The notes under the pieces were generated by a model. That model had not been told where the DNA came from and searched no databases. It was given only the letters and a program-made list of their open reading frames with translations. A stretch of 54,476 nt of DNA, taken from positions 66,711 through 121,186 of the forward strand of contig JARGOP010000002.1 of assembly GCA_029233965.1 (NCBI GenBank), in the 5' to 3' direction. The position numbers and the translations under genes are program-made. This document shows positions 12,704 to 34,028 of this stretch, piece after piece (the first letter of the stretch is position 1; each line of letters opens with the position of its first letter). The DNA comes from Verrucomicrobiales bacterium. GTDB taxonomy: Bacteria > Verrucomicrobiota > Verrucomicrobiia > Verrucomicrobiales > DEV007.

Positions 12704-14458
12704 TCAGCTGCGCTGTTTCTCGAGGAACTTTCTCCATCCTCCGAGTGAAGTGATGTTCTCACTGCCATCCGGGACCTCGGATTCGCAGATGAATCCAGTG
12801 ACTAATTGACCGCCTGACAGTCTCAATTTTCCGAATCCAAGCGGGCTCGGAATGCCTGCGACAAAGGACCCGAATTGACCGGCGGGAATGGCCCAGCTCT
12901 CGACAGCGATGGAGGCTCCCTTTCCTGCTTCGACGCGGATCAGCCCCGGGCGCGGGGGAAGACCTTGCTCTGCGGGGAGCGCGAGGAGTTGGTAGTCGGC
13001 CGCGGTTGTGCCCTCGCGAAGAAAACGGGCACCACGATCAATGAGTTGGTGATTGAGGGGTAAACCTCTCATGTGGGCACCGCAAACGACGACCTCAATC
13101 CAGTCGGCGGGGAGCTCGGAATGGGAAGCCTCCGTGCCTCCGAAGCGCCCCGCGAGAGCCAGAAGCGCCTGATCCGAAAACGCCGGGGCGACAAGAGTAA
13201 TCCCCCAGGGTACTCCTTTCGTGGCGAGCCTTCCTGCTGGAATCGCACAGGCGCTCAAGTCGAGGAGGTTCATGAAATTGGTGTAATAGCCAAGGTTGGA
13301 ATTCAGCTGGACCGGATCCGCTTCCACCTCTGCGGCGGTGTAGGCCGTTCCCGCGGTGGGCGTGACGATGAGGTCAACCTCATCCATGACGCGATCGGCA
13401 CGACGTTTCAGTTCCTTGAGCCGATACTGAGCGCGGAATCCGTCGACGGCACGGGGGAGGCCACCGCCGCTGATGATCTTGCGGGTAACAGGGTGAAGGG
13501 CCTCAGGCTGGTCAGTGATGAAATCTTCGATCGCAGCGAAACGCTCCGAGACCCAAGGCCCCTCGTAGAGAAGAAGAGCCGCTTCGAGAAAGGCGCTGAA
13601 ATCGATGACAACTTTGGTGCCGCCGATGGATTCCAGTTTAGAGACAGCCTCGGCGAAAAGCGCTTCCGCCCCGGTGTCACCGAAGAACTGAAGCTGGTCG
13701 GCCTGCGGGACCCCGAAGGTGAACTCATTGGGAGGGAACCAGTTCGACTGGACGACGTCGCGCGAGTAGGCATCGCCCTCGTCCGCTTGCGCTGCCACTT
13801 CAAAAACCGCTGAGGCATCTTCCGGAGACTTTGTGAAAATCGAAACACAGTCGAGTGAGCGACAGGCGGGAACGACCCCCTTGCAGGAGAGACGGCCAAA
13901 GGTTGGCTTGAGGCCGATCAGCTCATTCAACCCGGCAGGGATTCTACCCGAGCCGGCCGTATCGGTCCCGAGGGAAAAGGTTACCAAATCGCGGGCCACC
14001 GCGACGGCGGAGCCGGAAGAGGAACCTCCCGGGATGAAATCTTCATTGAAAGGGTTCCTCGGAAAACCATACGGGGAACGCACCCCGACGAGTCCCGTCG
14101 CAAACTGGTCGAGGTTGGTTTTGCCAATCGGGATCGCTCCCGCTTCGATCAGTAAGGCGACAACGGTGGCGTCTTTGTCAGGATTGTAGGTATAGTCTGG
14201 ACAAGCTGCTGTCGTGGGGTTGCCGGCGAGATCGATATTGTCCTTGATCGCAAAAGGGATTCCGAAAAGCGGTTTTGTGGCGGGTGACTCCCCTTCGAGC
14301 GCTGCGAGGATGGATTCCATGCGCGCCCTGGAAGTCAGCGAAATCCAGATGGCTGGATCTTCTTTTTCAACTGCTTCCATCAAGGAGGCAACCAGATCGC
14401 GAGGAATGAGTGTGCCTTCGTTATATTGCTGATGTAGGGAAGAGAGGGAGAGATTCAT
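12704..14458 (-). CDS. atzF: Allophanate hydrolase (AtzF type)
   Basis: Hydrolyses allophanate to two CO2 and two ammonia, the last step of the guanidine/urea carboxylase route. The frame is open further upstream, but that part lies opposite the 3' end of the carboxylase gene. The ATG at 14458 gives a natural N-terminus and 584 residues, close to AtzF length. Residues ~1-430 are an amidase-signature domain with the catalytic Lys in FAIKDNID, Ser in GGSSSGSA and Ser in DTAGSGRIPAG. Residues ~440-584 form the C-terminal allophanate-hydrolase domain (starting EVVVCGAHMRGLPLN). It is the last gene of the island, 92 bases after the carboxylase stop. Confidence 0.94.
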   Translation of the reverse strand: MNLSLSSLHQQYNEGTLIPRDLVASLMEAVEKEDPAIWISLTSRARMESILAALEGESPATKPLFGIPFAIKDNIDLAGNPTTAACPDYTYNPDKDATVVALLIEAGAIPIGKTNLDQFATGLVGVRSPYGFPRNPFNEDFIPGGSSSGSAVAVARDLVTFSLGTDTAGSGRIPAGLNELIGLKPTFGRLSCKGVVPACRSLDCVSIFTKSPEDASAVFEVAAQADEGDAYSRDVVQSNWFPPNEFTFGVPQADQLQFFGDTGAEALFAEAVSKLESIGGTKVVIDFSAFLEAALLLYEGPWVSERFAAIEDFITDQPEALHPVTRKIISGGGLPRAVDGFRAQYRLKELKRRADRVMDEVDLIVTPTAGTAYTAAEVEADPVQLNSNLGYYTNFMNLLDLSACAIPAGRLATKGVPWGITLVAPAFSDQALLALAGRFGGTEASHSELPADWIEVVVCGAHMRGLPLNHQLIDRGARFLREGTTAADYQLLALPAEQGLPPRPGLIRVEAGKGASIAVESWAIPAGQFGSFVAGIPSPLGFGKLRLSGGQLVTGFICESEVPDGSENITSLGGWRKFLEKQRS

Positions 14459-14550
14459 CTTTGGAGAAAATAGATCAGGCGAGAGATAGGCTGCGCCGGG
14501 ATCAGGGAGCGGCGATAGGATATCGCTCCTCCCTGGTAGCTTTCGGCATG

Positions 14551-17500
14551 TCAGGATGGTTTGAGGGCCATGAGAAGTTGTCCGGGTTGAACCGGGTTTC
14601 CCTCTTTCGCAAAAACAGATTCCACGGTGCCGGTCTCTGGAGATGGAATCGAAATCTCCATCTTCATCGCTTCGAGAATAATGACTGAGTCGCCTTCCTG
14701 AACGACATCCCCGGGCTTCACAAGCACTTTCCAGACACTTCCGGCGACGGCTGCCTCCACCGGTTCGCAGCCTTCGGGGAGTTCGCTTTCGGGTGGAGCA
14801 GCAATCTCCTCTGCTGTCTCGACCAGCTTCTTGAAAATGCCGGCGTCTTCCCATCGTTGGCGCTCCTCGCGGAAGGCGTTTTGCTGGGTGCATTGAAAGT
14901 TGGTAATGGACTCAGCCTCGTCGGCAAGGAATTGATTGTAGTCCCTGAGCGAAAAGCTGGTCGTTTCGATCTCCGGATTCCAACGCCCGATCAGAAAATC
15001 AGATCGGAGTTGTTTCAGCTCTTCCCCGGTGACTTCATAGAAACGGATCTGATCAAAGAAGCGAAGGAGCCAGGGTTCCTCTTCGGTGAACGATTCGGTG
15101 ACGTGAAACTTGTTCCACATTTGGACAGTGCGTCCCACGAACTGATATCCTCCCGGACCTTCCATGCCGTAGATGCAGAGATAGGCCCCGCCGATTCCTA
15201 CAGCATTCTCCGGAGTCCAGGTTCGGGCGGGATTGTATTTCGTCGTGACAAGGCGGTGTCGTGGATCCAGCGGTGTCGCGACAGGGGCGCCAAGATAGAC
15301 GTCACCGAGACCCATCACGCAGTAGGCCGCTGAGTAGACGATTTCCTTCACTTCCTCAATCGTGGCGAGGCCATTGACTCGACGAATGAACTCAATGTTG
15401 CTCGGGCACCAGGGAGCGTCGGGATTGACTGACTGCATGTATTTTTGAATCGCCTCCTGCGTGCTGGGATCGTCCCATGACAGGGGAAGATGAACGACTC
15501 GGGCGGGGACCTCGACCGATTCCAGATCCGTAATCGAAGCCTCGGACTGATGTATGTAATCGATCACCTCTGCTTGCGAGAGGCGCCTGCTATCGAAATG
15601 AATCTGCAGCGAGCGGATCCCCGGAGTGAGATCGAGAACCCCTTCGATTTTCTGCTCACGGAACCACTGGTAAACGACATGAGCTTTGAAGCGGAGATTC
15701 AGATCCAGTTTCATGTCCCCGTATTCGACGAGGAGATGACTCTCGCCACTGGGGCGAATCGTGACTCCGGGAAGAGCTTTGATCACCGCAGTTCCGGTTG
15801 GGATCGGCTGGACTGTCGGAAGAGTCGGTTTCGCCGGTGAAATCAGTTTAGCGAGTGAAAAGTCCTGTTCGTCACGGAGAAGTCGAGCTTCTTTGTCAGA
15901 AACGGGATGAAATCGGATCGTGTCGCCGGGATCAACCTGCCCTATTTTCCAAAGGTCCGCTTCGATAATCGTCGCGGGGCAAACGAAGCCGCCAAGGCTG
16001 GGTCCATCCGGCCCGAGAATGACGGGCATGTCCCCCGTGAAATCGATCGACCCGACGGCGTAGGCATTGTCGTGGATGTTGGACGGATGAAGCCCTGCTT
16101 CGCCACCATCTTCCCGGGCCCACGTCGGTTTCGGCCCGATGAGGCGGACGCCGGTTCGTGCCGAATTGTAGTGAACTTTCCAGTCCGTGGTGAAGAGCAT
16201 CTCGATGTCTTCCGTGGTGAAAAACTCCGGACAGCCGTGGGGGCCATAGATCACGGCAATATCCCAATGCGTCGAGTAAGTCGGGATGAGGCCGGGCGGT
16301 GCGATGTTCGATTCGCCTGCCGGTTCCCTGCCGAGGCGAAGAACGTCACCGACGCGAAGGGCCCGACCTCCATGTCCGCCAAACTGACCGAGAGTGAAGG
16401 TGGATTTACTCCCAAGATAGTCGGGAACATCGAGTCCGCCCTTCACGGCAAGATAGGCGCGAACTCCGGGTTCCTTTCCGCTGGTGCCGATTTTCAGGAT
16501 GGAACCTTTCCTCACCGGAAACGGATGTCCGAACGGAACCGGTTCTCCATCCAGCGTCGTCGGGAGCGATGCCCCGACCAGGGCGATCTCAGCGGCACGG
16601 TTGAACTTGAGCGTCGGGCCGGACACCGTGATCTCGAGACCCGCGGTTCCCTCGGCATTGCCGACGAGTCGGTTCGCGATCCGGAACGCAAGGGGATCCA
16701 TGGGGCCTGATGGAGGAATGCCGACTTCCCAGTAGCCGATCCGGCCCGGGTAATCCTGAACCGTCGTTTGGGTCCCCGAAGCGAGCACATCGATCGTCGA
16801 AGGTGTGTACTCGAATCCGGCGAGCACACCCGTGCTCATGGCCCCGGGTTTTGAAAAGACTTCCGATTTCAGAATCTCACGGAGGTATTCCAGATTGGTC
16901 TCGATTCCGGCGATGTTCGTCTTTTCGAGAGCCTCTGACATCGCGGTGACGGCTTCCTCCCGCGACGGAGCCGTCACCATGATCTTGCCGATGAGGGAAT
17001 CATAGTGAGCCGAAATTTCGCTGCCGCTCGAAATCCAGTGATCAACTCGTGCCTCCTCAGGAAAAACGACTTCGGTAAGCAGCCCGGACGAGGGCTGGAA
17101 ATCCTTTGCGGGATCTTCTGCGCAGAGCCGGACTTCCATGGAACAACCCGATTCCGCAAAGGTGTAGTCAATCTCGTCGTCGCCGGCGAGTTTCACCATC
17201 CACTCGACCAGATCGACCCCGGTAACGGATTCCGTGATTCCGTGCTCGACCTGGAGGCGGGTGTTGATTTCAAGGAAGTAGTAGTCCCCCGTATCGGCAT
17301 CGACGAGAAACTCAGCAGTTCCGGCACTGCGGTAGTTCAGGGCCGCCGCCATTTTCGCAGCTCCTTCGAAGAGTTCCGGCGCCTCTTCGCGGGTGAAACC
17401 GGGCGCCGGTGTTTCCTCAACAATCTTCTGATGCCGACGCTGAGCGGAGCAGTCACGGGTTCCTAACGCAACAACATGACCCTTCCCGTCTCCGAAAAGC

Positions 17501-18132
17501 TGGACCTCAACGTGGCGGGCGCGCTGAATGTATTTTTCAAGGAAGACCCCACTGTCGCCGAAGTTCGCCCGGCTCGCGCGCGTGACCCTGTTAAATGCTT
17601 CACCCAACCCTGTTGAATCCTGACAGATCTCCATTCCAATACCGCCACCGCCTGCAGTGCTCTTGAGCATCACGGGGTAGCCAATCGCCTCCGCAGCGGT
17701 GATCGCTTCCCCGACTGAAGTGAGAAGGGCAGTTCCCTCGAGAAGGGGGACGCCGCTGTCCTTGGCGATCTGACGGGCCGTGTGCTTGAGGCCAAACTGG
17801 CGGATCTGTTCTGCGGTCGGTCCGATCCAGGCGATGTCGGCCGCTTCACAGGCCTCCGCGAAGCCGGCATTTTCGGAGAGAAGTCCGTAGCCGGGGTGAA
17901 GGCCGTCGCATCCAGTCGCTACCGCAATTTCGAGAATCCGATCCGTTTTCAGATAGGAGTCAGAAACGGGTGCGGGGCCGAGAAGAAAGGCTTCATCCGC
18001 TTCCGTGACATGGGGTGCGTCCCGGTCCGCTTCGGAGTAAACGGCGACAGAACCGATCCCGAGACGCTTCAAGGTGCAGATGATCCGGCAGGCGATTTCC
18101 CCGCGGTTGGCGATGATAACTTTGGAAAGCAT
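14551..18132 (-). CDS. Biotin-dependent urea/guanidine carboxylase
   Basis: A cytoplasmic biotin enzyme that carboxylates urea or guanidine with ATP and bicarbonate. The 1193-residue protein has all parts in order: biotin carboxylase (about 1-450, starting [14 protein letters not shown], with the glycine-rich ATP loop [11 protein letters not shown]); carboxyltransferase A/B region (about 470-780, starting [13 protein letters not shown]); carboxyltransferase C/D region (about 830-1030); and a C-terminal biotinyl domain with EAMKME and the biotinylated Lys at 1157. The family was long annotated as urea carboxylase, but members next to two DUF1989 genes have been shown to be guanidine carboxylases. 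The two DUF1989 genes lie immediately upstream (12-base gap), so guanidine is the more likely substrate. Confidence 0.93.
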
Positions 18133-18144
18133 GGATCAGAAAGC

Positions 18145-18777
18145 TCAGTCCCAGATGAGAACCTCGACAGGGGTGGGATTGTAGGCGTTGCAGGGATTGT
18201 TGAGCTGCGGGCAGTTAGAGATCAGGGCAATGACGTCCATCTCGGCGACCATCTCTACGTAGCGACCCGGTGCGGAAATCCCGTCGGCAAAGGTGAGCTT
18301 TCCGTCAGGGGTCACGGGAACATTCATGAAGAAGTTGATATTGTTCGTGATATCCCGTTTCCCGAGTCCCCCGCCCCATTCGATGACGCCGCAGAGAAAG
18401 GAATCGCGGCAGGCATGCATGGGTTCTTTATCGGGGGAATAGCGCATCGTGTTCGATTCGCGCGAGCAGGCTCCGCCGACGGTGTCGTGACGACCGCAGG
18501 TGTCGGCCGTGATCGTGAGAAGGGCATTCCCTTCGGTGGACATCAGAGTGGTGCCCGCAGTGAGGTAAAGGGCAGCCTGATTCCGGATTGTAACGTCTGC
18601 GGCATAGCGATCTGCGGGATCCTCCGCGTTGTAGAAAAGAGTGTCAGCGGCCTGGTTTCCTTCGAGGTCGAGGATGCGAAAGGTCTGTCCCTTTCTGATT
18701 CGCCGCATCCAGTGATCGCCGGCTTCGACGACTTTCCGATACGTGGCGGTTTCCGGAGAGTGAGTAGATTCAATCAT
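18145..18777 (-). CDS. cgdB: DUF1989 protein, probable carboxyguanidine deiminase subunit B
   Basis: A 210-residue DUF1989 protein formerly called urea carboxylase-associated protein 2. Known members form a heteromeric carboxyguanidine deiminase with the neighbouring paralogue, turning carboxyguanidine into allophanate and ammonia. Visible family features are the N-terminal [20 protein letters not shown], the Cys/His cluster [16 protein letters not shown], and the C-terminal segment [20 protein letters not shown]. It lies 3 bases after its paralogue and 12 bases before the carboxylase, so tight co-translation is likely. The A/B assignment is by length and order only. Confidence 0.88.
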
Positions 18778-18780
18778 GGC

Positions 18781-19506
18781 TCAGGCGCGCAGGGCGTAGT
18801 AGTCCTCCGTGTTAAGGAACGCTCGTTCGTTCTCAGGGCGTGAAACACGGCAGGGATCATCGGCGGCGACCGGATCGACCGCGAAGACTTCAAGCTTCAC
18901 CGGCTTCGGTGCATAAGAAGGGTTCGGATCGAGCGGGTGCTGACAGGTCGTGAGGACAACGAGGGTGTCCATTTCGAAGCGAAGTTCAACCACGGCACCG
19001 GCCGGCGAGGCACCTTCAACGTAGCTGAGTTTTCCGACTTCGTCGGAGACAACTTTGGAAAAGAGATTCAGATTCGGAACGATGTCTTTCTTTCCAAGAC
19101 CATGTTTCCCTAACTCGATCAGAAAATTCTCCCTCGCATTCCGATAGAAGTCGTTGCGTGCGGTCTGATAGTTTTTCTCGCCGTATTTCTCACGAACCAG
19201 TTTCGCGTCGGTGCATCCACAGACGCTGTCATGCCAGCCTGCGGTGTCTTTGATGATCGAGCAGAAGAGGCGGCCCATGTCGGAGTGGAGGCAATGCCCT
19301 TCGGTGAGTTGGAAGGTGTGCTGACCTTTCAGCGTGTCGGGCATGTTGTAACGCTCGATTGGTTCGTCGGCATTGTAGAGAAGGGTGCTGACATTGGCTC
19401 CACCCTCGAGATCCGTGAGTCGCAGCACTTTGCCGCGACTGATCGTCTGCGACCACATGCCGCCGCCGATGAGTGTTTTCTGATAAATGATTTCGTGATT
19501 TGCCAT
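18781..19506 (-). CDS. cgdA: DUF1989 protein, probable carboxyguanidine deiminase subunit A
   Basis: A 241-residue DUF1989 paralogue of the next gene (formerly urea carboxylase-associated protein 1). It shares the fold and the matching segments [32 protein letters not shown] and [21 protein letters not shown]. The family acts with its partner as carboxyguanidine deiminase between the carboxylase and allophanate hydrolase steps. The ATG at 19506 has no good Shine-Dalgarno. The 84 bases back to the NikR-like gene contain nothing recognisable, so it is probably read through from that gene. Confidence 0.88.
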
Positions 19507-19590: not shown

Positions 19591-20070
19591 TTACTTTTTG
19601 CCTTTTGGACGCGATTCCTGACCTGCTTTGTCTTCACCGGGGAAAGGGTGAATGGGCGGAATGAGGAGCGACATCATGACGATGCGACCGGACTTCACTC
19701 CTTTGCAGGTGATCAGTTTGTCGGCGATCATTTTCAAACGACGCGCCGGTCCCTGCACGAGAATCACCTCCATGGTGTGCTCGTCCTCGAGAAGGATATG
19801 CTGAGAGCTGATCACTTCGTCGATGTATTCACGCTCAATCGCCGCGAGCTGGGGAAGGAGTCCGGACTTTGATTCGTCGTAAAAGAGTGTGATGGTCCCC
19901 GCCATCATTTCCGTGCCCCGCTGTTTGTAATGCTCGATGAGACTGGCGTTGATCATCTCCGCCACCGCCTGGGAACGATTCGTGAAACCCCGTGCTTTCA
20001 CGAGATTGTCCAATTCGCAGTACACTGCGTTGGGAAGGGATATGCTGATTCTTTTAACGCCTTTTTCCAA
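19591..20070 (-). CDS. NikR-like ribbon-helix-helix regulator with altered metal site
   Basis: A 159-residue transcription factor. The N-terminus (KGVKRISISLPNAVYCEL, then RGFTNRSQAVAEMI) is a ribbon-helix-helix DNA-binding domain. The C-terminal ~85 residues align with the NikR ACT-like nickel domain (IEREYIDEVISSQHILLE to LITCKGVKSGRIVMM). Against E. coli NikR, only the ligand equivalent to His87 is kept (QHI); the positions of His89 and Cys95 are Leu and Thr, and the His76 region has no His. Start: an upstream TTG at 20088 is possible, but the TTG at 20070 has a perfect AAAGGAGG (20076-20083) 5 bases upstream and is preferred. It sits between the oxygenase part and the guanidine core and is the only regulator in the island. 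Confidence 0.85.
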   Translation of the reverse strand: MEKGVKRISISLPNAVYCELDNLVKARGFTNRSQAVAEMINASLIEHYKQRGTEMMAGTITLFYDESKSGLLPQLAAIEREYIDEVISSQHILLEDEHTMEVILVQGPARRLKMIADKLITCKGVKSGRIVMMSLLIPPIHPFPGEDKAGQESRPKGKK

Positions 20071-20130
20071 AACGGCCTCCTTTGCCAACTACCTGAGCAC
20101 AAGGCGGGCCAACGGGTACTACTTTTTTAT

Positions 20131-20144
20131 CTAATAGTATTACT
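20131..20144. promoter_or_regulatory. Candidate autoregulatory operator upstream of the NikR-like gene
   Basis: CTAATAGTATTACT contains the perfect palindrome TAATA-G-TATTA. On the coding (-) strand it reads AGTAATACTATTAG, sharing AGTAATAC with the site upstream of the transporter operon at 34092-34106. It lies about 60 bases before the preferred start, right beside the stop codon of the SUMF1-fold gene. A role in autoregulation is inferred from the shared motif. Confidence 0.45.
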
Positions 20145-20145
20145 T

Positions 20146-20814
20146 TCAGGCCGGCAGGGTGTTACCGCTTCTCCGAACAAGCCGGAATCCGACATTGTCC
20201 CTCTCGCTGTCATCCGGGATCTCATCGCTCCAGGAACAGCGAAGGAGTCGCGGGAGGTAGTCCCAGGCTCCGCCACGAATCCGGTGACTACCTGTTCTCC
20301 TGCCGGGCTCTTTCGTCCATTCGCAGACATTCCCGATCATGTCGTAAAGACCGAAGGCGTTCGCAGGATAGGAGCCGACGGGTGTCATGCGACCGGAGCC
20401 GACCCTTTCGATCGCCTCATCGTAGAGAAAATTTGCGTCGGACGGGTTGAGGGTGTTTCCACCGGGGAAAACCGTGGCGGTTCCTGCTCTAGCGGCGTGC
20501 TCCCATTCATGAGCCGAGGGGAGGCTCCATCCCTGGTCGCCGGTTTCGCGCCTCAGCCACCCCACAAAGGTCACGGCGTCGATCCAACTGATCCCGTGAG
20601 CGGGGAGGGAGCCGTCGAGTTCCTCAAATCGACCCGGCTCGAACTCGCGCCATTCATGAATCGTCACCGGATGCCGACCTATTTCAAATGGACCCCCAAT
20701 GTCGATCCATTCTCCGATCGGTTCCCCGCCGTTGGCAAATTTGTCATCCAGCGACGCGCCAATCCAGGTCCTGCCACCCGGGACTGTTGCGGTTTCCATC
20801 TCAAGAACAGTCAT
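20146..20814 (-). CDS. SUMF1/FGE-sulfatase-fold protein, lacks FGE cysteines
   Basis: The 222-residue protein is essentially one formylglycine-generating-enzyme (SUMF1) domain: PGGRTWIGASL, the RHPVTIHEWREF strand, ISWIDAVTFVGWL, LPSAHEWEHAARAG, YDMIGNVCEWT and RIRGGAWDYLPRLLRC to NVGFRLVRR. True FGE uses a cysteine pair just after the GGS segment; here those places are Tyr and a gap, so sulfatase activation is unlikely. The fold is also used by EgtB-type mononuclear-iron enzymes and by binding modules. The start ATG overlaps the stop of the CE4-like gene by 4 bases (ATGA), so they are translationally coupled. A paralogue lies at 23914-24657. Function unknown. Confidence 0.85.
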   Translation of the reverse strand: MTVLEMETATVPGGRTWIGASLDDKFANGGEPIGEWIDIGGPFEIGRHPVTIHEWREFEPGRFEELDGSLPAHGISWIDAVTFVGWLRRETGDQGWSLPSAHEWEHAARAGTATVFPGGNTLNPSDANFLYDEAIERVGSGRMTPVGSYPANAFGLYDMIGNVCEWTKEPGRRTGSHRIRGGAWDYLPRLLRCSWSDEIPDDSERDNVGFRLVRRSGNTLPA

Positions 20815-21671
20815 GCGTCAAAATTGATTTCGTTCCTTCGCGAAGCTTCCCCTTTCACCCACTCCGCGATCTGTGAACCGGTCGCGACCCAGGCATCGCC
20901 GGTGTCGATGATGTCGTTGAGAAGTCGCTCCAGCAGTTTCACGCGCGATGGTCGACCGCTCAGCCATGGGTGTAGTGTCAGGACAAAGCAACAGCCATAG
21001 TCTCTCATCGCCACAAACTCGTCCCACCAGAGTCGATACACTTTCTCGCAGTCTTCCGGAATGAATCCCCAGGCGGGGTCGGCGTTGAAGGCAAACTGCT
21101 CCCAGTCTTCGAGCATCCAATGACCGGGAATCTCGACAAGTCCGTTGTCATGGAGAAAAGGGACATCATCCGCCATCATGCTGGCATTGTAGAGAAAGCC
21201 TTCCCGTTTTAGAAGATCCGCAGTCCCCGGATTGATTTCGAACCACGGCGCGCGGTAGCCAACCGGTCTTTGACCGGTCACTGACTCAAGAATGCCAAGG
21301 CTCTTGAGGAGGATCGCTTCCTCCTCCCCGGGGGAGAGGTCGGCCAGTTTTTCGTGAAGGTGACCGTGGGCGCCGACCTCGTGACCGTCGGAAAGAATCG
21401 CCGCTGTCATCTTCGGATGATGCTCAACGATATAGCTGGGAATGAAAAACGTGGCCGGCAGTTCCAGGTGCTTCATGAGACCGAGAAGCCGGGGGACGCC
21501 GACATTCGGGCCATACTCACATTGCGACATGGTCGTCATTCGTGAGGCGAGGGTGAGGTCTTCGGACAGTGCGGTGGTTTCTCCATCGACATCAAAACAG
21601 ACCATGACGGCACATCGCCTGCCGTCGGGCCAGGTGAAGCGGGGTTCCGGTAGGTAGGGGTACTTGGCCAT
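20811..21671 (-). CDS. CE4-family deacetylase-like amidohydrolase
   Basis: A 286-residue member of the polysaccharide-deacetylase (CE4) superfamily. Metal and catalytic motifs are MVCFDVDGET (motif 1), GAHGHLHEKL (motif 2, H-x3-H), GYRAPWFEI (motif 3) and LTLHPWLSGRPSR (motif 5). There is no signal peptide. The segments YGPNVGVPRLLGLMKHLELPATFFIPSY and VEIPGHWMLEDW are like the HpPgdA/cyclic-imide-hydrolase/PuuE branch, whose members often hydrolyse small cyclic amides or ureides rather than polysaccharide. In this island a cytoplasmic amidohydrolase acting on a nitrogen compound fits better than cell-wall deacetylation. This is inference from lineage and context. Confidence 0.85.
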   Translation of the reverse strand: MAKYPYLPEPRFTWPDGRRCAVMVCFDVDGETTALSEDLTLASRMTTMSQCEYGPNVGVPRLLGLMKHLELPATFFIPSYIVEHHPKMTAAILSDGHEVGAHGHLHEKLADLSPGEEEAILLKSLGILESVTGQRPVGYRAPWFEINPGTADLLKREGFLYNASMMADDVPFLHDNGLVEIPGHWMLEDWEQFAFNADPAWGFIPEDCEKVYRLWWDEFVAMRDYGCCFVLTLHPWLSGRPSRVKLLERLLNDIIDTGDAWVATGSQIAEWVKGEASRRNEINFDA

Positions 21672-23906: not shown

Positions 23907-23913
23907 GAGAAAC

Positions 23914-25913: not shown

Positions 25914-26765
25914 TTAGTAGAGATAGCGAAAGCAAAGACGGTGAATGAGGCGGAAAAGAAGATCGAAGAGCAGGCCAAGCAGTCCGATCACGAGGATGCC
26001 GGCAAGGATGTCCTCCACCCTGACAAAACGCTTTGCGCGCATCATCATGGCCCCGATCCCGTCGGTCGCGGCGACGATTTCGGCGATGACGAGATAGGTC
26101 CAACTCACCGCGAGCATCTGGCGGGCCGTGTCGAGATAGCTGGGAAGAGCGGATGGCAGAATGACCCGCCAGACGACATTGCCGCGCTTCGCCCCCAGGG
26201 TTCGTGAACACTCCACGATCTCGGTTCGAACCGCCTTGGTGTTGTCCATGAAGAGAGTGACGAGAAACCAGACCACCCCGAGGACGAGAAGGGCGATTTT
26301 CTGACCATCACCGGTGCCGAGCCACATGAGGAGAAGTGGAACAAAGGACGGTGCGGGGAGATAGCGGAAGGGAGAGACAAGCGGATTCAGAAACCCTTCC
26401 GCGACCGGGAATGTCCCCATGACCATCCCCAGGGGAAGAGCAATCGAAAGAGCGATCGCGAAACTGATCAGGATTCGTTTCACGCTCATGAGAACATCGA
26501 CACCAAATCCCTGATTGGCGAAAAGGTTGATCAAGGCGGCCCCCACCTGCGCCGGTCCCGGGAAAAGGGCTTCGGGCGTGAACGAGGCGGCGGCAAGAAA
26601 ATGCCAGCCTAACAGAAAAACCATCCATGCGGATACGGCAAGAGCTACCTGAAGAGGCCGATTGATCGATTTCTTGAATTCAAAGAGCGAAAGAAATCGA
26701 GGCTCCTGCTTAGGCTTCACTTCTACTTGAATCACAGGTGATTTGGCTGTGTTGACTGCTGACAT
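25914..26765 (-). CDS. NitT/TauT-type ABC permease
   Basis: A 283-residue inner-membrane permease of the SsuC/TauC/NrtB type with about six hydrophobic segments, the first at about 35-58 (VALAVSAWMVFLLGWHFLAA). The conserved cytoplasmic EAA-like loop is CSRTLGAKRGNVVWRVILPSALPSYL, which contacts the ATPase. The ATPase encoded at 30618-31517 is the only one in the island, so it may serve both permeases. The first ~25 residues are polar. The preceding 132 bases hold the strong palindrome at 26847-26876, so this gene may begin a separate expression segment. Confidence 0.88.
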   Translation of the reverse strand: MSAVNTAKSPVIQVEVKPKQEPRFLSLFEFKKSINRPLQVALAVSAWMVFLLGWHFLAAASFTPEALFPGPAQVGAALINLFANQGFGVDVLMSVKRILISFAIALSIALPLGMVMGTFPVAEGFLNPLVSPFRYLPAPSFVPLLLMWLGTGDGQKIALLVLGVVWFLVTLFMDNTKAVRTEIVECSRTLGAKRGNVVWRVILPSALPSYLDTARQMLAVSWTYLVIAEIVAATDGIGAMMMRAKRFVRVEDILAGILVIGLLGLLFDLLFRLIHRLCFRYLY

Positions 26766-26897: not shown

Positions 26898-28259
26898 TCA
26901 GAACAACCGTGCATAACGATCGATCTCCCACTGGGAGACGGTTTGGTGATACTGCCGCCATTCCTCAGATTTGTAGGTGATGAATTCATCTCTCAATTCC
27001 TTCCCTAACACTTCAGCAACGAACGGGTCATCGGAGAACTCCTTCACCGCCTCATTGAGGTCACGGGGAAGTTCCTGAATTCCCGCGTCGGCAAGTTGCT
27101 GCGAACTGTATTCGTAGAGGTTTTCCTCCTGAGCCTCGCCCGGGTCGATCCCTTCGCGGATTCCTTCGAGTCCGGCAGCGAGAACGAGCGTTGCCGCGAG
27201 GTAGGGATTGCAGGCCGCATCGGCATTCCGCGACTCCACCCGGCCGCCTCCCATGGGAACGCGGAGCGCATTGGTCCGGTTGTTTTTTCCGTAGCTGTTA
27301 AAGACCGGCGCCCAGCTGTAGTAGGACATAAGACCGCGACGCACGAGTCGCTTGTAGCTGTTCACGGTCGGGGCAAAGGCGGCGCAGATGGCCGGGCCGT
27401 GTTTGAGGACACCTCCGACGAACTGGTAACCCAGTTCGGTAAGGCCGAGGCCGCGTGGATCCTCAGCGGGATCGCACTCGAAAAGGTTGGAGCCGGTTTC
27501 GAGATCGTAGAGCGACATGTTGAAGTGCGCTCCCGATCCGGTCTTGTTCGCGAAGGGTTTCGGCATGAAAGTCGCAAGCAGTCCTTCTTCCGCAGCGTAG
27601 TGCTTGGCCATCATCCGGAAGAAGATGAAGCGGTCACACATCGTGAGGGCATCCGCGTATTTGAAGTCGAACTCGAACTGGGAGTTCGCGTCTTCGTGGT
27701 CGAGGGAGTAAAGATCCCAACCGAGGTCGTTGATCACCGTGGAAACTTTATCAAGCCACTCGTAGCGATCCATGAATCGCTTCACGTCGTAGCAGGCCTT
27801 TTCGAGGTTGTCGTCGTCGTTCGGGATTTCGAGGGTTCCGTCTTCGGTATACTTCACAACAAAGACCTCGCACTCGATCCCGAGATTGAGGCCGTATCCC
27901 ATCTCCGCGGCCTGCCCGAGGACTTTCTTCAGCGCGACCCGGGTATTGATCTCGTAGGGCTCGCCTTTGAAAGTGTTGTCGGCGGGAAAGAAGGCGACTT
28001 CTTTGTTCCAGGGAAGAATCGTGCCGCGTTCCAGGTCCGGCACCGAAGCAATCTCATCATCGTTCGGGCTTTGCCCGAGGCCGTCAAGCGCGTAGCCCGT
28101 GTAGAGTTCCGAACCCAGCGCAAAATGTACAAAGTGATCGATCGGCACGAACTTCCCCTTCGGCACGCCGTGGATATCGACGTAGGCTCCGACACAATAC
28201 TTCACTCCCTGAGCCTTCAGCTCTTCCTGCTTCTGGATTAATTCATCTTTGGTCATCAT
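26898..28259 (-). CDS. GlnT / gamma-glutamylmethylamide synthetase-like ligase
   Basis: A 453-residue glutamine-synthetase-fold enzyme that ATP-dependently joins ammonia or an amine to glutamate. Starts at 28259 or the adjacent ATG at 28256 both fit; upstream in-frame codons do not look coding. Motifs: beta-grasp N-domain ([20 protein letters not shown]), [18 protein letters not shown], the catalytic-domain [22 protein letters not shown], the ATP/glutamate segment [10 protein letters not shown], and [27 protein letters not shown]. The pattern is closer to GlnT/type III and gamma-glutamylmethylamide synthetases of methylamine users than to GlnA (the adenylylation-site region differs). It follows Rieske oxygenase 2 by 14 bases, consistent with capturing ammonium or alkylamine released by oxidation. 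Confidence 0.85.
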
Positions 28260-28273
28260 AAGTTTTTGCTTTG

Positions 28274-29629
28274 TTAGAGTTGTGCCGGAGCGGCGGGTCG
28301 ATCCAGAGTGGGCCAGGTGCCCCGCGCTCTCGCGGCGATGAATCGCTGAATGAGCCAAATCGACATCTCGAGGTGGCTGAGTCGTCCCCGCTGATAGCCG
28401 GAGGTGTAGAGCCCCCGCTGTACGGCCATACAGACCTCCATGTCTTCGAGGTGAAAGTCGATCGCAGCCTGATTGCCCTTTTCTTTCATGGCTTCAAACT
28501 CGGGATGATCGGTGGTGGAAGCAGGAACCAGAATCGTGGTGAGCAACTTGAGTCGATCCGGTCCGAGCGGTTCGATGCGGTACCAGATGAACGAGTCAGG
28601 CGTCGTCACGAAGGTGAAGAGGGGAAAGCCGAGTCCGAGCCCCCACTCATAACGCTCGTTCTCGCTGAGCGCCTCGATGGGAGGAAAGATGTCCCAGCGC
28701 CTCCCCTCTGCTTCCATCGCTTTGATTTCCTCACGAAGAGCCTTTTTCATCGGGAGGTGACACCGGATGTGAGAAGGCTTCTCCTCCTCCGTCCAGGTGT
28801 CCCGCGCCGGCATCATTGGTTGGAGCGTCCTGCTGTGAGCTCCGGCATGGTGATAGGACTCCATGAAGTTCTCCGCGAGGACTTTCCAGTTGAAGGCGCA
28901 GTCCCACTCGTTCGAGGAAATCAGCTTCATCTCCCCGACGTTCCAGGGGGCAATCGACTCGTTCAGGCTGGCATATTTCTCTGCCACGGTTTGCGGCGCC
29001 TTCCCGTCGAGGTTGAGAAAGAGAAAGCCATTCCAGACTTCGGAGCGGAATTCCCGAAGCTTCCAATCATCGCGATCAAACCCCTCGGCTTCGCCCATCT
29101 CGGCGCAGGCTTTGAGCCGGCCGTCGAGTTCGAAGGTCCAGAAGTGATAAGGGCAGAGAAAGAACCGGGTCTTGCCGCAACCGGTTTCCCCGTCCCGAAC
29201 TTCCGCAGGACTGTGCCCATCGTGCCCGAATCCGGGAGGCATGATATCCATGGCACGGTGCGGGCAGACCCGGGATAGGATACGGTATTGCCCCTCCTTG
29301 TCCTTCACGGCAATCATGGGCTCACCGAGAAGATCGAGATTGATGAAATCCCCGTTTTCAGGCAGTTGGGAAAGATGCGCGACAGCATACCAGTCGTTCC
29401 GGAAAAGGTTCTCGATTTCCCATTCAAAGAACTCCCCGCTGGTGTAGGCCTGCGAAGGGAGGGTGGTGCTTTGTGATAAGGGAAGATCGGCGATGCGCTC
29501 GATCTCCTCGAGGATATCGGTTACGGAGAGTTCAGGTTGAGCGTTGGGGATCATTCCCCGGTAGCCCTCTCCGGACGAAGTGGCCGGCAGGCAGGCTTTG
29601 CGTATGTCAGATTCAGTGACGTCTTTCAT
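28274..29629 (-). CDS. Rieske non-heme iron oxygenase, large subunit (2)
   Basis: A 451-residue paralogue of the oxygenase at 21779-23038. Rieske ligands: C122, H124, C159, H162 ([14 protein letters not shown]). There is a longer insert between the two halves (about 132-155, starting [10 protein letters not shown]). Mononuclear iron: H260, H265 and D397; bridging residue E257 ([13 protein letters not shown]). The conserved E-x2-H-x4-H form places both copies with N-alkyl/quaternary-amine oxygenases. It starts at ATG 29629 after a 186-base gap that may carry its own control signals, and is followed closely by the GlnT-like gene. The oxygenase pair may be two alpha subunits of one complex or two steps of one pathway. 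Confidence 0.92.
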
Positions 29630-29773: not shown

Positions 29774-29786
29774 AATCGTATTGCGT
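29774..29786. promoter_or_regulatory. Operator-like half-site in the gap before Rieske oxygenase 2
   Basis: AATCGTATTGCGT is close to GATCGTATTACTT at 34096-34108. It lies in the 186-base gap (29630-29815), which also contains a small hairpin (GAGCTG 29747-29752 with CAGCTC 29759-29764). It is a single degenerate match, so only a weak candidate. Confidence 0.25.
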
Positions 29787-29815
29787 GTCGATTTCATCCG
29801 GTGATTCAGAAAGTG

Positions 29816-30598
29816 TCAGGGATGGTAAGGTTGCAGATCACTCCAGTAGGATGCTTCAAGTGGAGGAACCTCCGTTTTCGCCGTTTCAACAAAAGCGGCA
29901 AGAGCATCACCCATTTCGGTAAAAAGCGTTTCGCCTCTTGCCGCGTCGCCCAGGGAGGGGTTTCCGGTGATCCCGTTGAGGCTGGTTTGCGCAACCGGGT
30001 AACTGAAGACCGTGCCCCCGGTTCGGTCGGGGTCATCTTCGACCAGGTCCATCCGCACCGTTTCCGGAGTGAGGTGAAGAAGGAGATCCGTTTCCGCCTT
30101 GTTGGCGTGCAGATCGTCCGCGTCGGAAATGAAGTATTCCCAGATCTTGTCTGAGAGCTGAAAAGTTCCCTTCAAACCGATCTGGAGTCTCCCAAGGAAC
30201 TCGAGCCGAATCTTTTCGATAGCGACTCGCAGCGAGGCATCGTTTCCGAAGTGGCTGTTTACGAGAAGCAGTTTGGACCAACCGGTCGCCACCGCCCAGG
30301 TCGCGATCTCCTGCACCGTGGCAATGAAAGTATCGTGCCGCAGCGAAAACGTCCCCGGCCACTTCGGGGTGTGGCCTGAGGATACGGTATAAGCCAATGA
30401 CGGCAGGATCGGGACACCTGACTTGCCCGAAGCATACCGGCAGACGCTTTCGGCGATTACGGTGTCGCAATTGATCGGTAAATGGGGACCGTGCTGCTCC
30501 GTTGCGCCGATCGGAAGGATCAGAAATCCTCCGCAGCGATCACGAACTTTCGCGACCTCGGGCCACGGCAGTTTTTCCAGTTTGATCGCTGCTTCCAT
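29816..30598 (-). CDS. Creatininase-family amidohydrolase
   Basis: A 260-residue member of the creatininase family, which opens cyclic amides such as creatinine or removes formyl groups. With the ATG at 30598, motif residues fall at E34, H36 and D45 (TEQHGPHLP, NCDT), the same numbers as the metal ligands of Pseudomonas creatininase, which supports this start over the GTG at 30634. The second metal segment reads NSHFGN (His 116) instead of the usual NGHGGN, and the later HAGE-like motif reads HANKAETDLLL. Substrate is uncertain, but a cyclic guanidino or ureido compound would fit the island. It follows the ATPase gene closely (about 19 bases). Confidence 0.85.
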   Translation of the reverse strand: MEAAIKLEKLPWPEVAKVRDRCGGFLILPIGATEQHGPHLPINCDTVIAESVCRYASGKSGVPILPSLAYTVSSGHTPKWPGTFSLRHDTFIATVQEIATWAVATGWSKLLLVNSHFGNDASLRVAIEKIRLEFLGRLQIGLKGTFQLSDKIWEYFISDADDLHANKAETDLLLHLTPETVRMDLVEDDPDRTGGTVFSYPVAQTSLNGITGNPSLGDAARGETLFTEMGDALAAFVETAKTEVPPLEASYWSDLQPYHP

Positions 30599-30617
30599 GA
30601 AATTCTGTTTGTTCTGA

Positions 30618-31517
30618 TCACTCGACGTCGTCACCCTGCTTGGTCATGCGGGGGAACGGAAGGGTGTCCTGACCGCGTTCGCTTTCGGGATGAATGAGCT
30701 GATTGATACGGTGCTTCGTTGCGATAAACTCGGGTTCGATAAATTGATCGAGGCTTCGCGGCCGGGGAACGGGGACCTCGATGATCTCATCGACTTCACC
30801 TGGATTCGCCTTCAGGACGAGGATCCGGTCGGACAGGTAGATCGCCTCATCGAGATCATGGGTGATGAAGAGAATCGTAATGTCGAGATTCTTCCAGATC
30901 TGCAGGAGGTAGCTTTGCATCTGCGCCCGGGTCTGGGCATCGAGGGCGCCGAAAGGCTCATCCATGAGGAGGATCCTGGGGCGGTTTGCAAGGGCGCGGG
31001 CGATGGCGACCCGTTGCTTCATGCCGCCGGAAAGCTGGTGAGGGTAGCTGTTCTCGAACTGCGAGAGCCCCACGAGTTCGATCCATTGTCGCGCATCCGC
31101 TTCCACTCCGGCCTCTTTGTGGCCGGCCATTTTCGGACCAAACATGACGTTCTGCTTTACCGTGAGCCACGGGAATAGTGTGTAGGACTGGAAGACCATG
31201 CCGCGATCAGGGCCGGGACCCGCAACCGGGTTCCCATCCAGAAGAACGGCGCCGGCAGTCTCCGTTTCGAGTCCGGCAAGAATGCGAATGAGCGTTGACT
31301 TTCCGCAGCCCGAGGGGCCAATCACGCACATGAACTCACGGCGGTAGACTTCGAAGTCCACGGACTTCAAGGCGGTGACATCCCCGTTTCTCGAAGGGAA
31401 GATCTTCGTGAGGTCGTCGACGGAGAGAACGACCGGTCGTTGCTTCAACTCCGCGAAGCGCTTGCTCACTTCGGGAGATTGCGTGTGATAATCAATGGTG
31501 TCTGCAGGAGGAATCAT
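30618..31517 (-). CDS. NitT/TauT-type ABC transporter ATPase
   Basis: A 299-residue nucleotide-binding subunit that powers import through the adjacent permease. Motifs: Walker [12 protein letters not shown]-loop [10 protein letters not shown], signature [15 protein letters not shown], Walker [13 protein letters not shown], and switch His in [10 protein letters not shown]. The C-terminal ~45 residues after the core ([23 protein letters not shown]) are typical of the nitrate/taurine subgroup. It starts 20 bases after permease 1. It is the only ATPase in the island and could also energise the second permease/binding-protein pair. Confidence 0.94.
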
Positions 31518-31537
31518 GGTCGGAAAATGTATTCGTG

Positions 31538-32932
31538 TCAGGCGGCATCCGGAGTCGTCTTGCCGCCGAGGAGACGCCGGACGAGGCGGGGAAGGAAGAG
31601 GACCGCTTTCATGATGGGATGGGAGGCGGCTTTCGCGCCGTCCTCGGTGTAGGGGAAAATCACCCCTTTGATCAGTGAAAGAATCTGGTCGGTGAAGAAT
31701 CCGATCAATCCGATGAGGATAATGACAGGGAAGACGAGGTCAAAATTCCGGAAGCGCCCCTGAGTTTCAATGAACTCGGTGAGACCGCTCTTCACACCGA
31801 CCAGTTCAGCGATAACGAGCCACGTCCAGGCCCATCCGAGGAGGATTCGAAGATCGTCGTAAAGGCTCGGCATGATGCCGGGCACGACCACCTTGGAAAG
31901 CAACTGGTGCTGGCTTGCCCCAAGGGTCTGCGCGGCTTCAAGCAAAGGCATGTCGAGTCGCCTCGTCGTGTTCGCCACCACGAGCACGAGCTGGAAGAAG
32001 GTGCCGACGAAGACGAGCGCAATTTTCGGTGCGTCGTTTGCGAGAAAGATTGCGACTAACAAAGTGCTGAAAGTCGGAGCCGGCATGTAGCGGAAGAAGT
32101 CGGTGAACGGTTCCACGAGTCGCGAGAAAAACGGATAGGTTCCGCAAACAACTCCAATAGGAACGCCGATGAGAGCGGCGAGAAGAAAACCGCCGAAGAC
32201 AATTTGAAGGGAGTGCCCGACTCGTTGCAGCATGGAGGGGCGATCGCTCTCGGCGGGGATGCTGAATATTTTAATTCCGGAAGTCAGGACTTTGTCAGGG
32301 GCCGGCAGGTAGTCCGGGTTTGAGGCCTTTCCCTGCGGAACCAGACTGAGAAGCGGGACGGAAACGAAATTGTCCGAATCGTAGTTCGGGGAGACGGCGC
32401 TCATGGCCTTCCAGTTTGCTTCGACGATTTCGATGTTTTCGTCGCTCAGGGACGGTCTTTTCAGTGAGCGCTCGCCGGAGGCGAGTTCGCCCCAGGCATG
32501 ATAGATCGCTTCGTCATCGGTGCTTTGGTCATCGGAAATCCACCCGTTTTGAATGAGAAGCGGGGCAAGGTGTCGGAGGACCTTCTTGTTGGCGCGGCGC
32601 ACCGTGCTTTCGGAAGCACCGGCAAGCGGGTCTTCCGAAGCGAGTTGTGTGTTCAGCTCCGCATTCTGTACCCGGACAGCTTCCTGAAACTCCGGGAAGA
32701 AGCCTTTGCTGAGGCGGTCGCCCGCCACGTAAACCGTCGAGACGTCTTTCCGGTTCGCGGAAAGCTGAAGCTGTATGTCAGGATGCCAGAGAAACGGGAG
32801 GTAGCTCACCGCTGACCAGATCAGGAGCGGAAGGGTGAATGAGACCACGGTGAGGACGGTCGCCCGTTTCGGCGAGAGTTCGCGCCGGACTGCAAACCAG
32901 GGATCACGGGCGTTTTTTCCGGAATCTGACAT
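31538..32932 (-). CDS. ABC permease of the carboxylase-linked transporter, with large insertion
   Basis: A 464-residue permease, far longer than the usual ~260. The start is placed at ATG 32932 ([13 protein letters not shown]); the frame is open slightly further. One membrane segment (about 25-50, [20 protein letters not shown]) is followed by ~185 mostly hydrophilic residues (about 52-235). The normal permease core comes next ([22 protein letters not shown] onward), with the EAA loop [27 protein letters not shown]. The extra domain should face the periplasm and may help dock the binding protein. It lies between the binding-protein and ATPase genes. Confidence 0.9.
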
Positions 32933-33011
32933 TTTAATAAAGGCAAAAAGCGGAGAGGTCGGTAACATCGGGGCCGTAAACGACCCCGACGTTGAACCAA
33001 CTAAGAATCCT

Positions 33012-34028
33012 CTACTCAGCGGCCATTTCCTCGAGCACTTCGAGGGTCAGGCTGGGGTCGAAGTATTTATCGATATCGAGCGCCTTTTCATAGGCTTCGA
33101 ACTCAACGTTGAAATCGTCGGAGATTTTGGTCGATCCGTAGACAGAACCGAGACCTTCGGCCTTTTCCCAGATCGGCTTTACTTCTTCACCGGTGAGAAT
33201 GTAGGTGCCGGCCAGGAATGGCTCATATTCGGCAGGGGAAACAGAGACGCGCGACGCGAGGATCTCGAGAGTTTCGTCGAGATTGTCTTCATCCTTGATG
33301 AAATCGACGATGCGATACCAAACCTTGATGACTTTTTTCCACTCATCACGGCGCTTCTCGAGACTTTCGGGATCGACGAACATAATATCGTAGATGATCC
33401 CCGGAGCATCAGCGGAAGTGAAGATCGGCTTGGATCCGGAAACCAGCTTGAGCGCTTCACCGGAGCTTGGCTGCCAGGCGGAAACCGCGTCGACGGCACC
33501 GGAGGAAAGCACCTGTGGTGTTTCGTTAGTCGGCGTGTTGACGGTAGTGATTTCATCAGGCTCCATGCCGGCCATTTCCATCCCTTTGAGAAGGAGAAGG
33601 TGGGGAACGAAACCCTCTTCAAGTCCAACCTTCATTCCCTTGAGGTCCATGAGGGACTCGATCCCCGGCTTGGCGACGATCATGTCGTTACCGTTTGAGT
33701 AGTCGTTGATAAGGATGCCGACGGAAGGCTTGCCGGTCGCTCCGGTGACGAGAGCATCACCGTTGGTCATGCCCACAGCATCGAGTTGACCGGCTGCATA
33801 GGCATCCATGGAGGCAACGTAGTCATACCACTCGAAGGAGACTTCGACGCCTTCTTCGGCGAACCAGTCTTTTTTGATACCGACCTCCCAGGCAACCCAG
33901 CCCGGCCAGTCACTGTATCCGATTTTAAGCGGCTCTGCCGAAAGGGGAACCGTGAGAAGTGCGCTGCCCGCGAGCATCGCACCGAACGTGAGGCACTTTT
34001 TCCAAGTGCGTGAAACTGATGTGATCAT
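33012..34028 (-). CDS. ABC substrate-binding protein, urea/guanidine carboxylase region type
   Basis: A 338-residue periplasmic binding protein with a Sec signal peptide (about 1-31, ending PLSA). The mature N-terminus [14 protein letters not shown] and the segments [37 protein letters not shown] and [15 protein letters not shown] are characteristic of binding proteins found beside urea/guanidine carboxylases (TIGR03427-like). The ligand is therefore probably guanidine or a related cation, not nitrate or sulfonate. It is the first gene of the island, with operator-like palindromes at 34074-34106 upstream and lgt diverging on the other side. Confidence 0.93.

Follow-up and report, generated by a model that had tools for sequence, protein, structure and literature searches.

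The window analysed here is a 54,476-nt stretch of DNA from a Verrucomicrobiota genome (4.83 Mb in 151 contigs), and all positions below are those of the whole window. It contains an island of 18 genes (g1 to g18) that lie on the minus strand from 34028 down to 12704, with gaps between neighboring genes of -17 to +186 bases. At its two ends are the parts of a guanidine-degradation operon, and between them lie genes for oxygenases, amidohydrolases, a ligase, a second transporter and a regulator. We consider it moderately likely that the island is a guanidine operon with an inserted feeder module for N-substituted guanidines. The genes, in island order, and the candidate operators are given below; the starts of the longest open reading frames were corrected from the translations for g6 (28259 or 28256), g8 (25887), g10 (23906) and g18 (14458).

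33012..34028, minus strand: g1, NMT1-type binding protein of the guanidine-operon transporter (Pfam NMT1)
31538..32968, minus strand: g2, permease of 476 aa with an extra segment ahead of the permease domain (Pfam BPD_transp_1, residues 268-431)
30618..31517, minus strand: g3, ATP-binding cassette (ABC) ATPase (Pfam ABC_tran)
29816..30634, minus strand: g4, creatininase-family amidohydrolase (Pfam PF02633, E 8e-57)
28274..29629, minus strand: g5, Rieske oxygenase A (Pfam Rieske and Ring_hydroxyl_A)
26898..28259, minus strand: g6, type III glutamine synthetase (GS) or gamma-glutamylmethylamide synthetase (GMAS)-like ligase (TIGR03105 over cut-off)
25914..26765, minus strand: g7, permease of the second transporter (Pfam BPD_transp_1)
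24679..25887, minus strand: g8, NMT1-type binding lipoprotein of the second transporter (Pfam NMT1; lipobox-like N terminus, by eye)
23914..24657, minus strand: g9, SUMF1/FGE-fold protein (Pfam FGE-sulfatase, E 1e-44)
23052..23906, minus strand: g10, xylose-isomerase-like TIM barrel (fold match of the AlphaFold model)
21779..23038, minus strand: g11, Rieske oxygenase B (Pfam Rieske and Ring_hydroxyl_A)
20811..21671, minus strand: g12, CE4 or PuuE-like amidohydrolase (Pfam Polysacc_deac_1)
20146..20814, minus strand: g13, second SUMF1/FGE-fold protein (Pfam FGE-sulfatase, E 1e-32)
19591..20088, minus strand: g14, NikR-fold regulator without most nickel ligands (Pfam NikR_C, E 3e-23)
18781..19506, minus strand: g15, DUF1989 subunit UAAP1, a carboxyguanidine deiminase subunit (TIGR03425 over cut-off)
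18145..18777, minus strand: g16, DUF1989 subunit UAAP2 (TIGR03424 over cut-off)
14551..18132, minus strand: g17, guanidine carboxylase (TIGR02712, named urea carboxylase, 1789 bits)
12704..14458, minus strand: g18, allophanate hydrolase (TIGR02713 and PRK08186 over cut-off; Pfam AH_C)
34077..34105, no strand assigned: candidate g14 operator before g1 (dyad scan, GTATTAC-N15-GTATTAC, 1 mismatch)
20116..20165, no strand assigned: two overlapping candidate g14 operators before g14 (20116-20143 and 20137-20165; dyad scan, 2 mismatches each)

The transporter genes g1-g3 and the four core genes g15-g18 look like one canonical guanidine operon that has been split by the insertion of middle genes. Both DUF1989 subunits, the allophanate hydrolase and an ABC importer are present together in the predicted operon, as judged from gene content and gaps. 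The residue of g17 that stands opposite N1330 of the K. lactis urea amidolyase, a position number that agrees with the 5i8i numbering in the alignment, is Asp697, and the same Asp is found in all 60 carboxylase frames of relatives that cover this position. Guanidine carboxylases are marked by an Asp in place of an Asn at that site (PMC12186494). The best NCBIfam match of g1 is TIGR03427, with 156.8 bits under its cut-off of 333.9, and g1, g2 and g3 share 54%, 52% and 66% identity with the binding protein, permease and ATPase of a Paraburkholderia plasmid guanidine operon that also holds UAAP1, UAAP2, the carboxylase and the allophanate hydrolase. In another genome of the window's genus (G016; here and below, G numbers denote genomes and L numbers fetched genomic loci), the operon at L123 runs transporter-UAAP1-UAAP2-carboxylase-hydrolase with zero module genes in between. 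Because this genome has the same order without the middle genes, and because the transporter matches that of the Paraburkholderia operon, it appears that the middle genes were inserted into an operon of known type. The permease g2 has 476 residues, of which only 268-431 form the permease domain; its Paraburkholderia counterpart is a frame of ~340, and the extra segment follows the first hydrophobic stretch.

The original prediction for this DNA, made from the sequence alone, had already proposed a guanidine-type core, which the Asp marker bears out. It had also allowed for urea as an end product, which is unlikely with a carboxylase of the guanidine type. Its gene list holds in that every gene named is present, while the count of 16 rises to 18 and the NikR-family g14 had been omitted. 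Its guess that g10 is a TIM barrel agrees with the predicted structure described below.

Relatives carry the operon in graded forms. It is plain in L123, L208, L210, L211 and L213; accompanied by the creatininase and GMAS genes in L207 and L209 (Verrucomicrobiota) and L179 (Pseudomonadota); extended with the Rieske, barrel and SUMF1-fold genes as well in L120, L204 and L205; and present as the full island in the window, L032 and L033. Among 23 loci with a relative of g11, the core follows on the same strand within the stretch in six (L032, L033, L035, L036, L037 and L046); in the remaining 17 it lies outside the fetched stretch, several of these stretches stopping at a contig end. The core is found ~9 kb further on in L112 and L113, and on other contigs in other relatives. 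Relatives also hold genes that are absent from the window: a MarR regulator in 10 of the 23 loci and, further, a second GS-like gene, a short-chain dehydrogenase and a CMD-family protein. Within the window's genus, a Rieske gene of the g5 or g11 type occurs in 15 of 33 genomes; UAAP1 accompanies it in 15/15 of these and is found in 3/18 of the rest, where Rieske matches of 25-26% identity (G005, and the second match in G025) were scored as absent and a partial UAAP1 match under the cut-off in G019 was scored as present. The nearest named relatives by g11 are Verrucomicrobiales and Akkermansiaceae metagenome assemblies, and all 19 Verrucomicrobia records among the g11 relatives are labeled as metagenome-assembled.

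The barrel protein g10 is linked to guanidine cores. It has no Pfam match at 0.001, and at E<=1 none save one that looks like chance. Its AlphaFold model (pLDDT 90) matches L-xylulose-5-P 3-epimerase (VIA Z 19.0, 3.7 A over 251 residues), the acidic and His barrel residues E134, D162, H191 and E243 are invariant across 22 sequences, and the xylose-isomerase-like (AP endonuclease 2) family PF01261 is matched by two of its relatives, not by g10 itself. We counted the barrel family, at a cut-off of E<=1e-25, in Verrucomicrobiota and in a set of 398 Pseudomonadota genomes centered on Candidatus Litorirhabdus, which was chosen for carrying the barrel. Among the Pseudomonadota, 42 genomes have the core (UAAP1 over the TIGR03425 cut-off, among 110 with any match). 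The barrel family is present in nine of the 398, and the core occurs in 9/9 of these (8/8 without the center genome) as compared with 33/389 of the others (Fisher 7e-10, or 7e-9 without the center; all P values ignore relatedness). In Verrucomicrobiota, the core is found in 8/14 barrel genomes and 27/274 others. The two are also neighbors: in a Paraburkholderia plasmid, the barrel adjoins a 2-oxoglutarate (2OG) oxygenase inside a full guanidine operon, and in G058, to which the Haliea salexigens locus L053 belongs, the barrel, a desaturase-like protein, a second transporter and GMAS adjoin the core. Across the family, the partners of the barrel are 2OG-Fe and desaturase-type oxygenases, with Rieske oxygenases in this place in the window's group, as would be the case for a putative release enzyme acting after different oxidations.

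The pair of creatininase-family (g4) and GMAS-like (g6) genes shows a similar association. In two phyla, these genes lie between the guanidine transporter and the core. Close relatives of g6 (E<=1e-150) occur in eight of the 398 Pseudomonadota genomes, seven of which also have the core. Among GMAS-like proteins, those accompanied by a creatininase-family gene in other families and in another phylum are 67-81% identical to g6, as compared with 52-55% for the Halieaceae-type GMAS and at most 42.5% for plasmid relatives (28 records, E<=1e-100); wherever a fetched stretch contains a g6 relative of at least 67% identity, it also contains a creatininase-family gene. The inserted genes are tied to guanidine metabolism by the order of the genes and by their joint occurrence in two phyla, which makes it reasonable to propose a feeder releasing guanidine from N-substituted guanidines.

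A precedent for such a feeder is known from Vreelandella, where methylguanidine is hydroxylated by the 2OG oxygenase MgdH and the product, a stable hemiaminal, is split by MgdL, with residues D49 and R51 (PMC12508155). Like the island, the mgdH/mgdL operon of Vreelandella boliviensis combines an oxygenase and a release enzyme with a guanidine carboxylase operon and an ABC transporter, the release role in the island being a proposed one. The island differs in having Rieske oxygenases and a TIM barrel as the release candidate, in its additional second transporter, creatininase, GMAS, CE4 and SUMF1-fold genes, and in that no guanidine riboswitch was found in it. None of the 18 island genes belongs to a 2OG-oxygenase family in Pfam, and queries of MgdH-like and MgdL-like proteins against the window gave no match (tblastn, E<=0.01). 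We considered and rejected g10 as an MgdL itself: MgdL-like proteins carry a D-x-R motif, have no Pfam family (two scanned) and no match in the window, while g10 is a barrel. At L175, a carboxylase and a 2OG oxygenase are accompanied by a 229-residue frame with D49 and R51 at the matching places counted from Met (by eye). We saw 16 MgdH-like oxygenases, nine of them near a barrel gene, six adjoining an MgdL-like protein and one (L174) at a stretch end; the nine barrel neighborhoods were found via the barrel search, which biases this count, and in L103 one other frame lies in between. In the 42 core loci, the partner of the MgdH-like gene is MgdL-like in six and unseen in one. Since the barrel occupies the place of MgdL beside MgdH-like oxygenases, it can apparently stand where MgdL stands, which suggests a similar job.

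Other loci add variations on these pairs. The barrel-MgdH pairs of L086, L087 and L104, which lie away from guanidine cores, have as neighbors transporters of the amino-acid type, class II aldolases and 2-hydroxyacid dehydrogenases, a hint of a guanidino acid from which a small oxo acid would arise. Longer MgdL-like frames (~350-370 residues from stop to stop) stand with MgdH-like genes in L149, L154, L156 and L162, and the one scanned (L154) has no Pfam family.

Both Rieske proteins of the island have the CxH...CxxH and ExYHHxxxH motifs of the iron-sulfur and iron-binding sites, and a candidate bridging Glu precedes YH in ESYHH of g5 and EAYHH of g11 (position matched by eye). In CntA the bridging Glu is E205, and CntA and Stc2 have a CxxC pair next to the iron (PMC10952381). 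The bridging Glu is thus common to g5, g11 and the Group V (quaternary ammonium) Rieske oxygenases, while the CxxC pair of some Group V members is absent from the g5 and g11 sequences. The best PDB matches of g11 are 3vca, 4qup ('demethylase') and carnitine monooxygenase (E ~1e-31), and its plasmid relatives (941 records) are all under 60% identical. The only FAD_binding_6 match in the window's genome is at L228 (G000, contig C51), in a fusion of at least 712 residues that combines a fatty-acid desaturase, a Rieske ferredoxin and an FAD/NAD reductase.

For g4 and g6, the nearest parallel is found in aniline and naphthylamine degradation, in which a Rieske enzyme works together with a GS-like ligase and a hydrolase (PMC11335346). 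The AtdA and NpaA systems for aniline and 1-naphthylamine dioxygenation described there resemble the island in that a Rieske oxygenase is clustered with an amide hydrolase and a gamma-glutamyl ligase of the GS-like kind. They have a two-component oxygenase with a reductase and a GAT-like hydrolase, whereas the hydrolase of the island would be creatininase-like, no reductase is present in the cluster, and the island is tied to guanidine. On the strength of this trio and of the conserved pairing of g4 with g6, we favor the view that g6 most likely attaches, and g4 removes, a gamma-glutamyl tag, with methylamine capture as the main rival. In L142, the creatininase-GMAS pair adjoins MgdL-MgdH in one guanidine operon. 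An operon of transporter, creatininase, GMAS and NikR alone, with a perfect dyad, makes up L223 and represents a minimal unit for the pair.

The gene ahead of the core, g14, encodes a NikR-fold protein that seems to exert control where relatives of the operon use an RNA element. It matches NikR_C over the Pfam cut-off and RHH_1 just under it (20.2 versus 20.5), and solved NikR chains align over both domains. Like NikR regulators, g14 has this fold, passes one NCBIfam NikR cut-off and has a candidate dyad of NikR-like geometry; it differs from them in that its gene sits in guanidine operons and that three of the four nickel ligands are replaced. These ligands are presumably H76, H87, H89 and C95 in E. 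coli NikR, a numbering that fits the alignment; the aligned residues of g14 are R, H, L and T. The complete set of four is not seen in any of the 32 g14 relatives found near such operons (one position is unaligned in L208). Two further NCBIfam models fall under their cut-offs (PRK02967, 70.3 versus 83; TIGR02793, 63.2 versus 175). We rejected a true nickel regulator on the ligand residues, though one cut-off is passed.

Operons of this type are often, though not always, controlled by a guanidine riboswitch, and in relatives guanidine-I and -II riboswitches (RF00442, RF01068) occupy that regulatory site. With a NikR-like gene counted as being at the core when a BLAST match to g14 lies within ~10 kb of UAAP1, a guanidine-I riboswitch was found in 35 of the 36 Pseudomonadota core genomes without such a gene and in none of the six with one. 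Riboswitch calls at 27 of the 42 loci are from all Rfam models on a 20-kb stretch, and the rest come from a genome-wide RF00442 scan that, in large genomes, scored no more than a part of the first-look candidates, so that absences there are not exhaustive; each of the six NikR-bearing core stretches was itself scanned. One of these six, L179, has a guanidine-II riboswitch. The only NikR-less core locus in which no guanidine-I riboswitch was found is L142 (G167). In the window, no guanidine riboswitch was detected, including in a low-threshold search of 12500-35400, nor in six NikR-bearing Verrucomicrobiota stretches; altogether, neither guanidine-I nor -II was found in 12 of the 13 NikR-bearing stretches scanned. 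Core operons thus show a near either-or pattern between the NikR-like gene and the guanidine-I riboswitch, while in L123 neither a riboswitch nor NikR was detected.

A dyad accompanies the NikR-like gene. E. coli NikR binds the operator GTATGA-N16-TCATAC. We searched for GTATTAC-N14/15-GTAATAC from -60 to 350 bases of the start of SBP1 (the transporter binding protein), NikR, UAAP1 or SBP2, and found it in 30 of 37 stretches from NikR-bearing genomes and in 0 of 29 others. Of all dyads, 51/64 in the 37 stretches are near such a start, as compared with 0/20 in the 29 others, and control spacings of 11-13 and 16-18 gave no excess. The consensus was derived partly from the same loci, and the test therefore lies in the contrast with the 29 others and with the control spacings. 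Four of the 37 stretches (L112, L114, L119 and L125) contain the transporter without the NikR-like gene, and several share a genome; no dyad is near a start in seven (L046, L112, L127, L204, L211, L212 and L213). In the window, one dyad lies 49 bases ahead of g1 and two lie 28 and 49 bases ahead of the g14 start, which fits a predicted role of g14 as repressor at both promoters in the riboswitch's stead.

Taken together, the proposed pathway would run as follows. The second transporter g7/g8, perhaps sharing the ATPase g3, would import an N-substituted guanidino compound, of which a carbon adjoining a guanidine nitrogen would be hydroxylated by the Rieske oxygenase g5 and/or g11. The resulting hemiaminal, unusually stable, would be broken by g10 into guanidine and an aldehyde, a role like that of MgdL, and around the oxidation g6 would attach and g4 remove a gamma-glutamyl group on an amine or guanidine nitrogen. 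Guanidine would then enter the core as in known pathways: carboxylation by g17, deimination to allophanate by g15/g16, and hydrolysis by g18 to ammonia and CO2. The candidate repressor g14 would act on the NikR-type dyads before g1 and g14, replacing guanidine riboswitches. We put forward with considerable reserve a more specific reading that combines three ideas. The island would run a glutamylate-oxidize-release pathway for N-substituted guanidines; the barrel would be a guanidine-hemiaminal lyase of a second kind, unrelated to the first, with Rieske, 2OG-Fe or desaturase-type oxygenases as its partners; and g14 would be a NikR-fold repressor whose ligand has changed from nickel to guanidine or a guanidino compound and which stands in for guanidine riboswitches. 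Neither such a lyase nor such a repressor is described in the papers searched.

A number of observations weigh against this interpretation, several of them showing that the module and the core can be separately inherited. Within the genus, the core lies on the same contig as the Rieske genes but ~189 kb from the Rieske B part in G015 and ~40 kb from the Rieske A part in G030. The barrel, a desaturase-like protein and the second transporter occur with no core in the stretch in L101, L102, L109 and L111 (three of the four with GMAS), L103-L108 carry the barrel with MgdH-like genes away from the core, and in L206 the barrel and Rieske genes are distant from the core of the same genome. The core is missing from six of the 14 Verrucomicrobiota barrel genomes; their matches are of 31-40% identity, yet so are four of the eight with the core. 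When four of ten plasmid records with a barrel relative were opened, the core was present in one and an MgdH-like oxygenase beside the barrel in three, and a Runella plasmid relative (33%) has neither as neighbor. In L223, the operon of transporter, creatininase, GMAS and NikR belongs to a genome (G419) with no UAAP1 match. For the release role, none of the MgdH-like genes in the 42 core loci has a barrel neighbor, the barrel stands in MgdL's place within a core operon only once (Paraburkholderia), and G415 holds both a barrel-MgdH and an MgdL-MgdH pair, so that the two proteins may serve different substrates. A dedicated reductase for the Rieske enzymes was not found in the island or the genome in a FAD_binding_6 search. 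As for regulation, g14 passes the NCBIfam NikR cut-off of PRK04460 (108.0 versus 105), no guanidine-I riboswitch was found near unlinked barrel clusters (12 barrel genomes) with the exception of G058, where the core adjoins, and in G428 the core has a riboswitch while a NikR-like gene stands with the creatininase-GMAS pair at another place, so that both can coexist in one genome.

The original prediction had described the middle genes as a funnel that turns substituted or cyclic guanidino and ureido compounds into guanidine or urea, and had named separate inheritance and independent expression of the oxygenase segment and the core as evidence against it. Such separation is seen in other groups and, with G015 and G030, within the genus itself. 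The guanidine feeder survives in kind, with gene order, co-occurrence in two phyla and the MgdH/MgdL precedent (PMC12508155) in its favor, but as a unit separable from the core; likewise, the arrangement of the gene set is kept in relatives, including the six g11 loci, while module and core also occur apart.

The separable occurrence would also be expected if two independent nitrogen-scavenging routes share the operon, both supplying ammonia, with the middle genes degrading a non-guanidine amine or betaine. This alternative, which we rate as rather doubtful, gains from the module's own transporter, from the MarR gene in 10/23 relative loci, from the unlinked module copies without guanidine-I riboswitches nearby, and from the carnitine monooxygenase and demethylase among the best PDB matches of g11. 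It does not account readily for the co-occurrence of the barrel with the core in 9/9 genomes even where the two are unlinked, for the barrel and MgdH-like genes inside the Paraburkholderia guanidine operon, or for the position of the creatininase and GMAS genes, in two phyla, between the guanidine transporter and the core, and g5 and g11 are without the CxxC pair of CntA and Stc2 (PMC10952381). Two known operons were tried as models of the middle module on account of the combination of Rieske, transporter and MarR genes. The auxin (iad) operon was rejected, as its B-III binding proteins and FMN reductase are without counterpart here. The homarine operon was set aside after a literature search gave no homarine-operon paper.

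Other alternatives concern g4 and g6. Instead of tagging the substrate, g6 could capture methylamine or another alkylamine split off a methylated guanidine or a creatinine-like compound; its best PDB match is indeed a glutamate--methylamine ligase (9qur, 387.5 bits), and the creatininase-GMAS pair is seen without an oxygenase beside it in L207, L209, L179 and L223. We nevertheless find this unlikely, given that oxidative demethylation would release formaldehyde and not methylamine, and that no gamma-glutamylmethylamide enzyme was recognized among the 18 genes, to which the search was confined, a genome-wide one not having been made. Degradation of creatinine, with g4 as a true creatininase and the core removing the resulting urea, is very improbable. 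The family membership of g4 and its matches to PDB creatininases (E 1e-18) speak for it; g4 reaches just 111.3 bits against a cut-off of 235 for the NCBIfam creatininase TIGR04448, the carboxylase has the guanidine-type Asp, and creatinase being of the peptidase M24 type, no island gene matches that Pfam family. The creatinine-like substrate suggested in the original prediction goes back to the family name of g4. The feeder for N-substituted guanidines remains our preferred explanation of the inserted genes.

Less can be said of the other module genes. The SUMF1-fold protein g9 is far under the NCBIfam cut-offs, with PvdO as the nearest model; g12 matches 3rxz (E 3e-70) and the PuuE allantoinase (E 1e-18) in the PDB; and in relatives g7 usually adjoins g8 near g10.

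An oxidative arm on a guanidine operon has already been published, while the version with Rieske, barrel, GMAS and creatininase genes and NikR-type control is not in the literature that we searched: neither a NikR-type regulator of guanidine operons nor a Rieske arm on one appears in its titles and abstracts, subscription papers and preprints lying outside the search. Guanidine serves widely as a regulatory ligand, and little is known of where it comes from in nature (PMC12186494; PMC12508155). An operon that trims larger guanidino compounds would point to natural sources of guanidine, in a mostly uncultured group known here from metagenome assemblies. With a protein regulator and a predicted operator, the sensing of guanidine without a riboswitch becomes a direct question of binding, and with the barrel family it can be asked whether evolution has produced release enzymes of a second kind.

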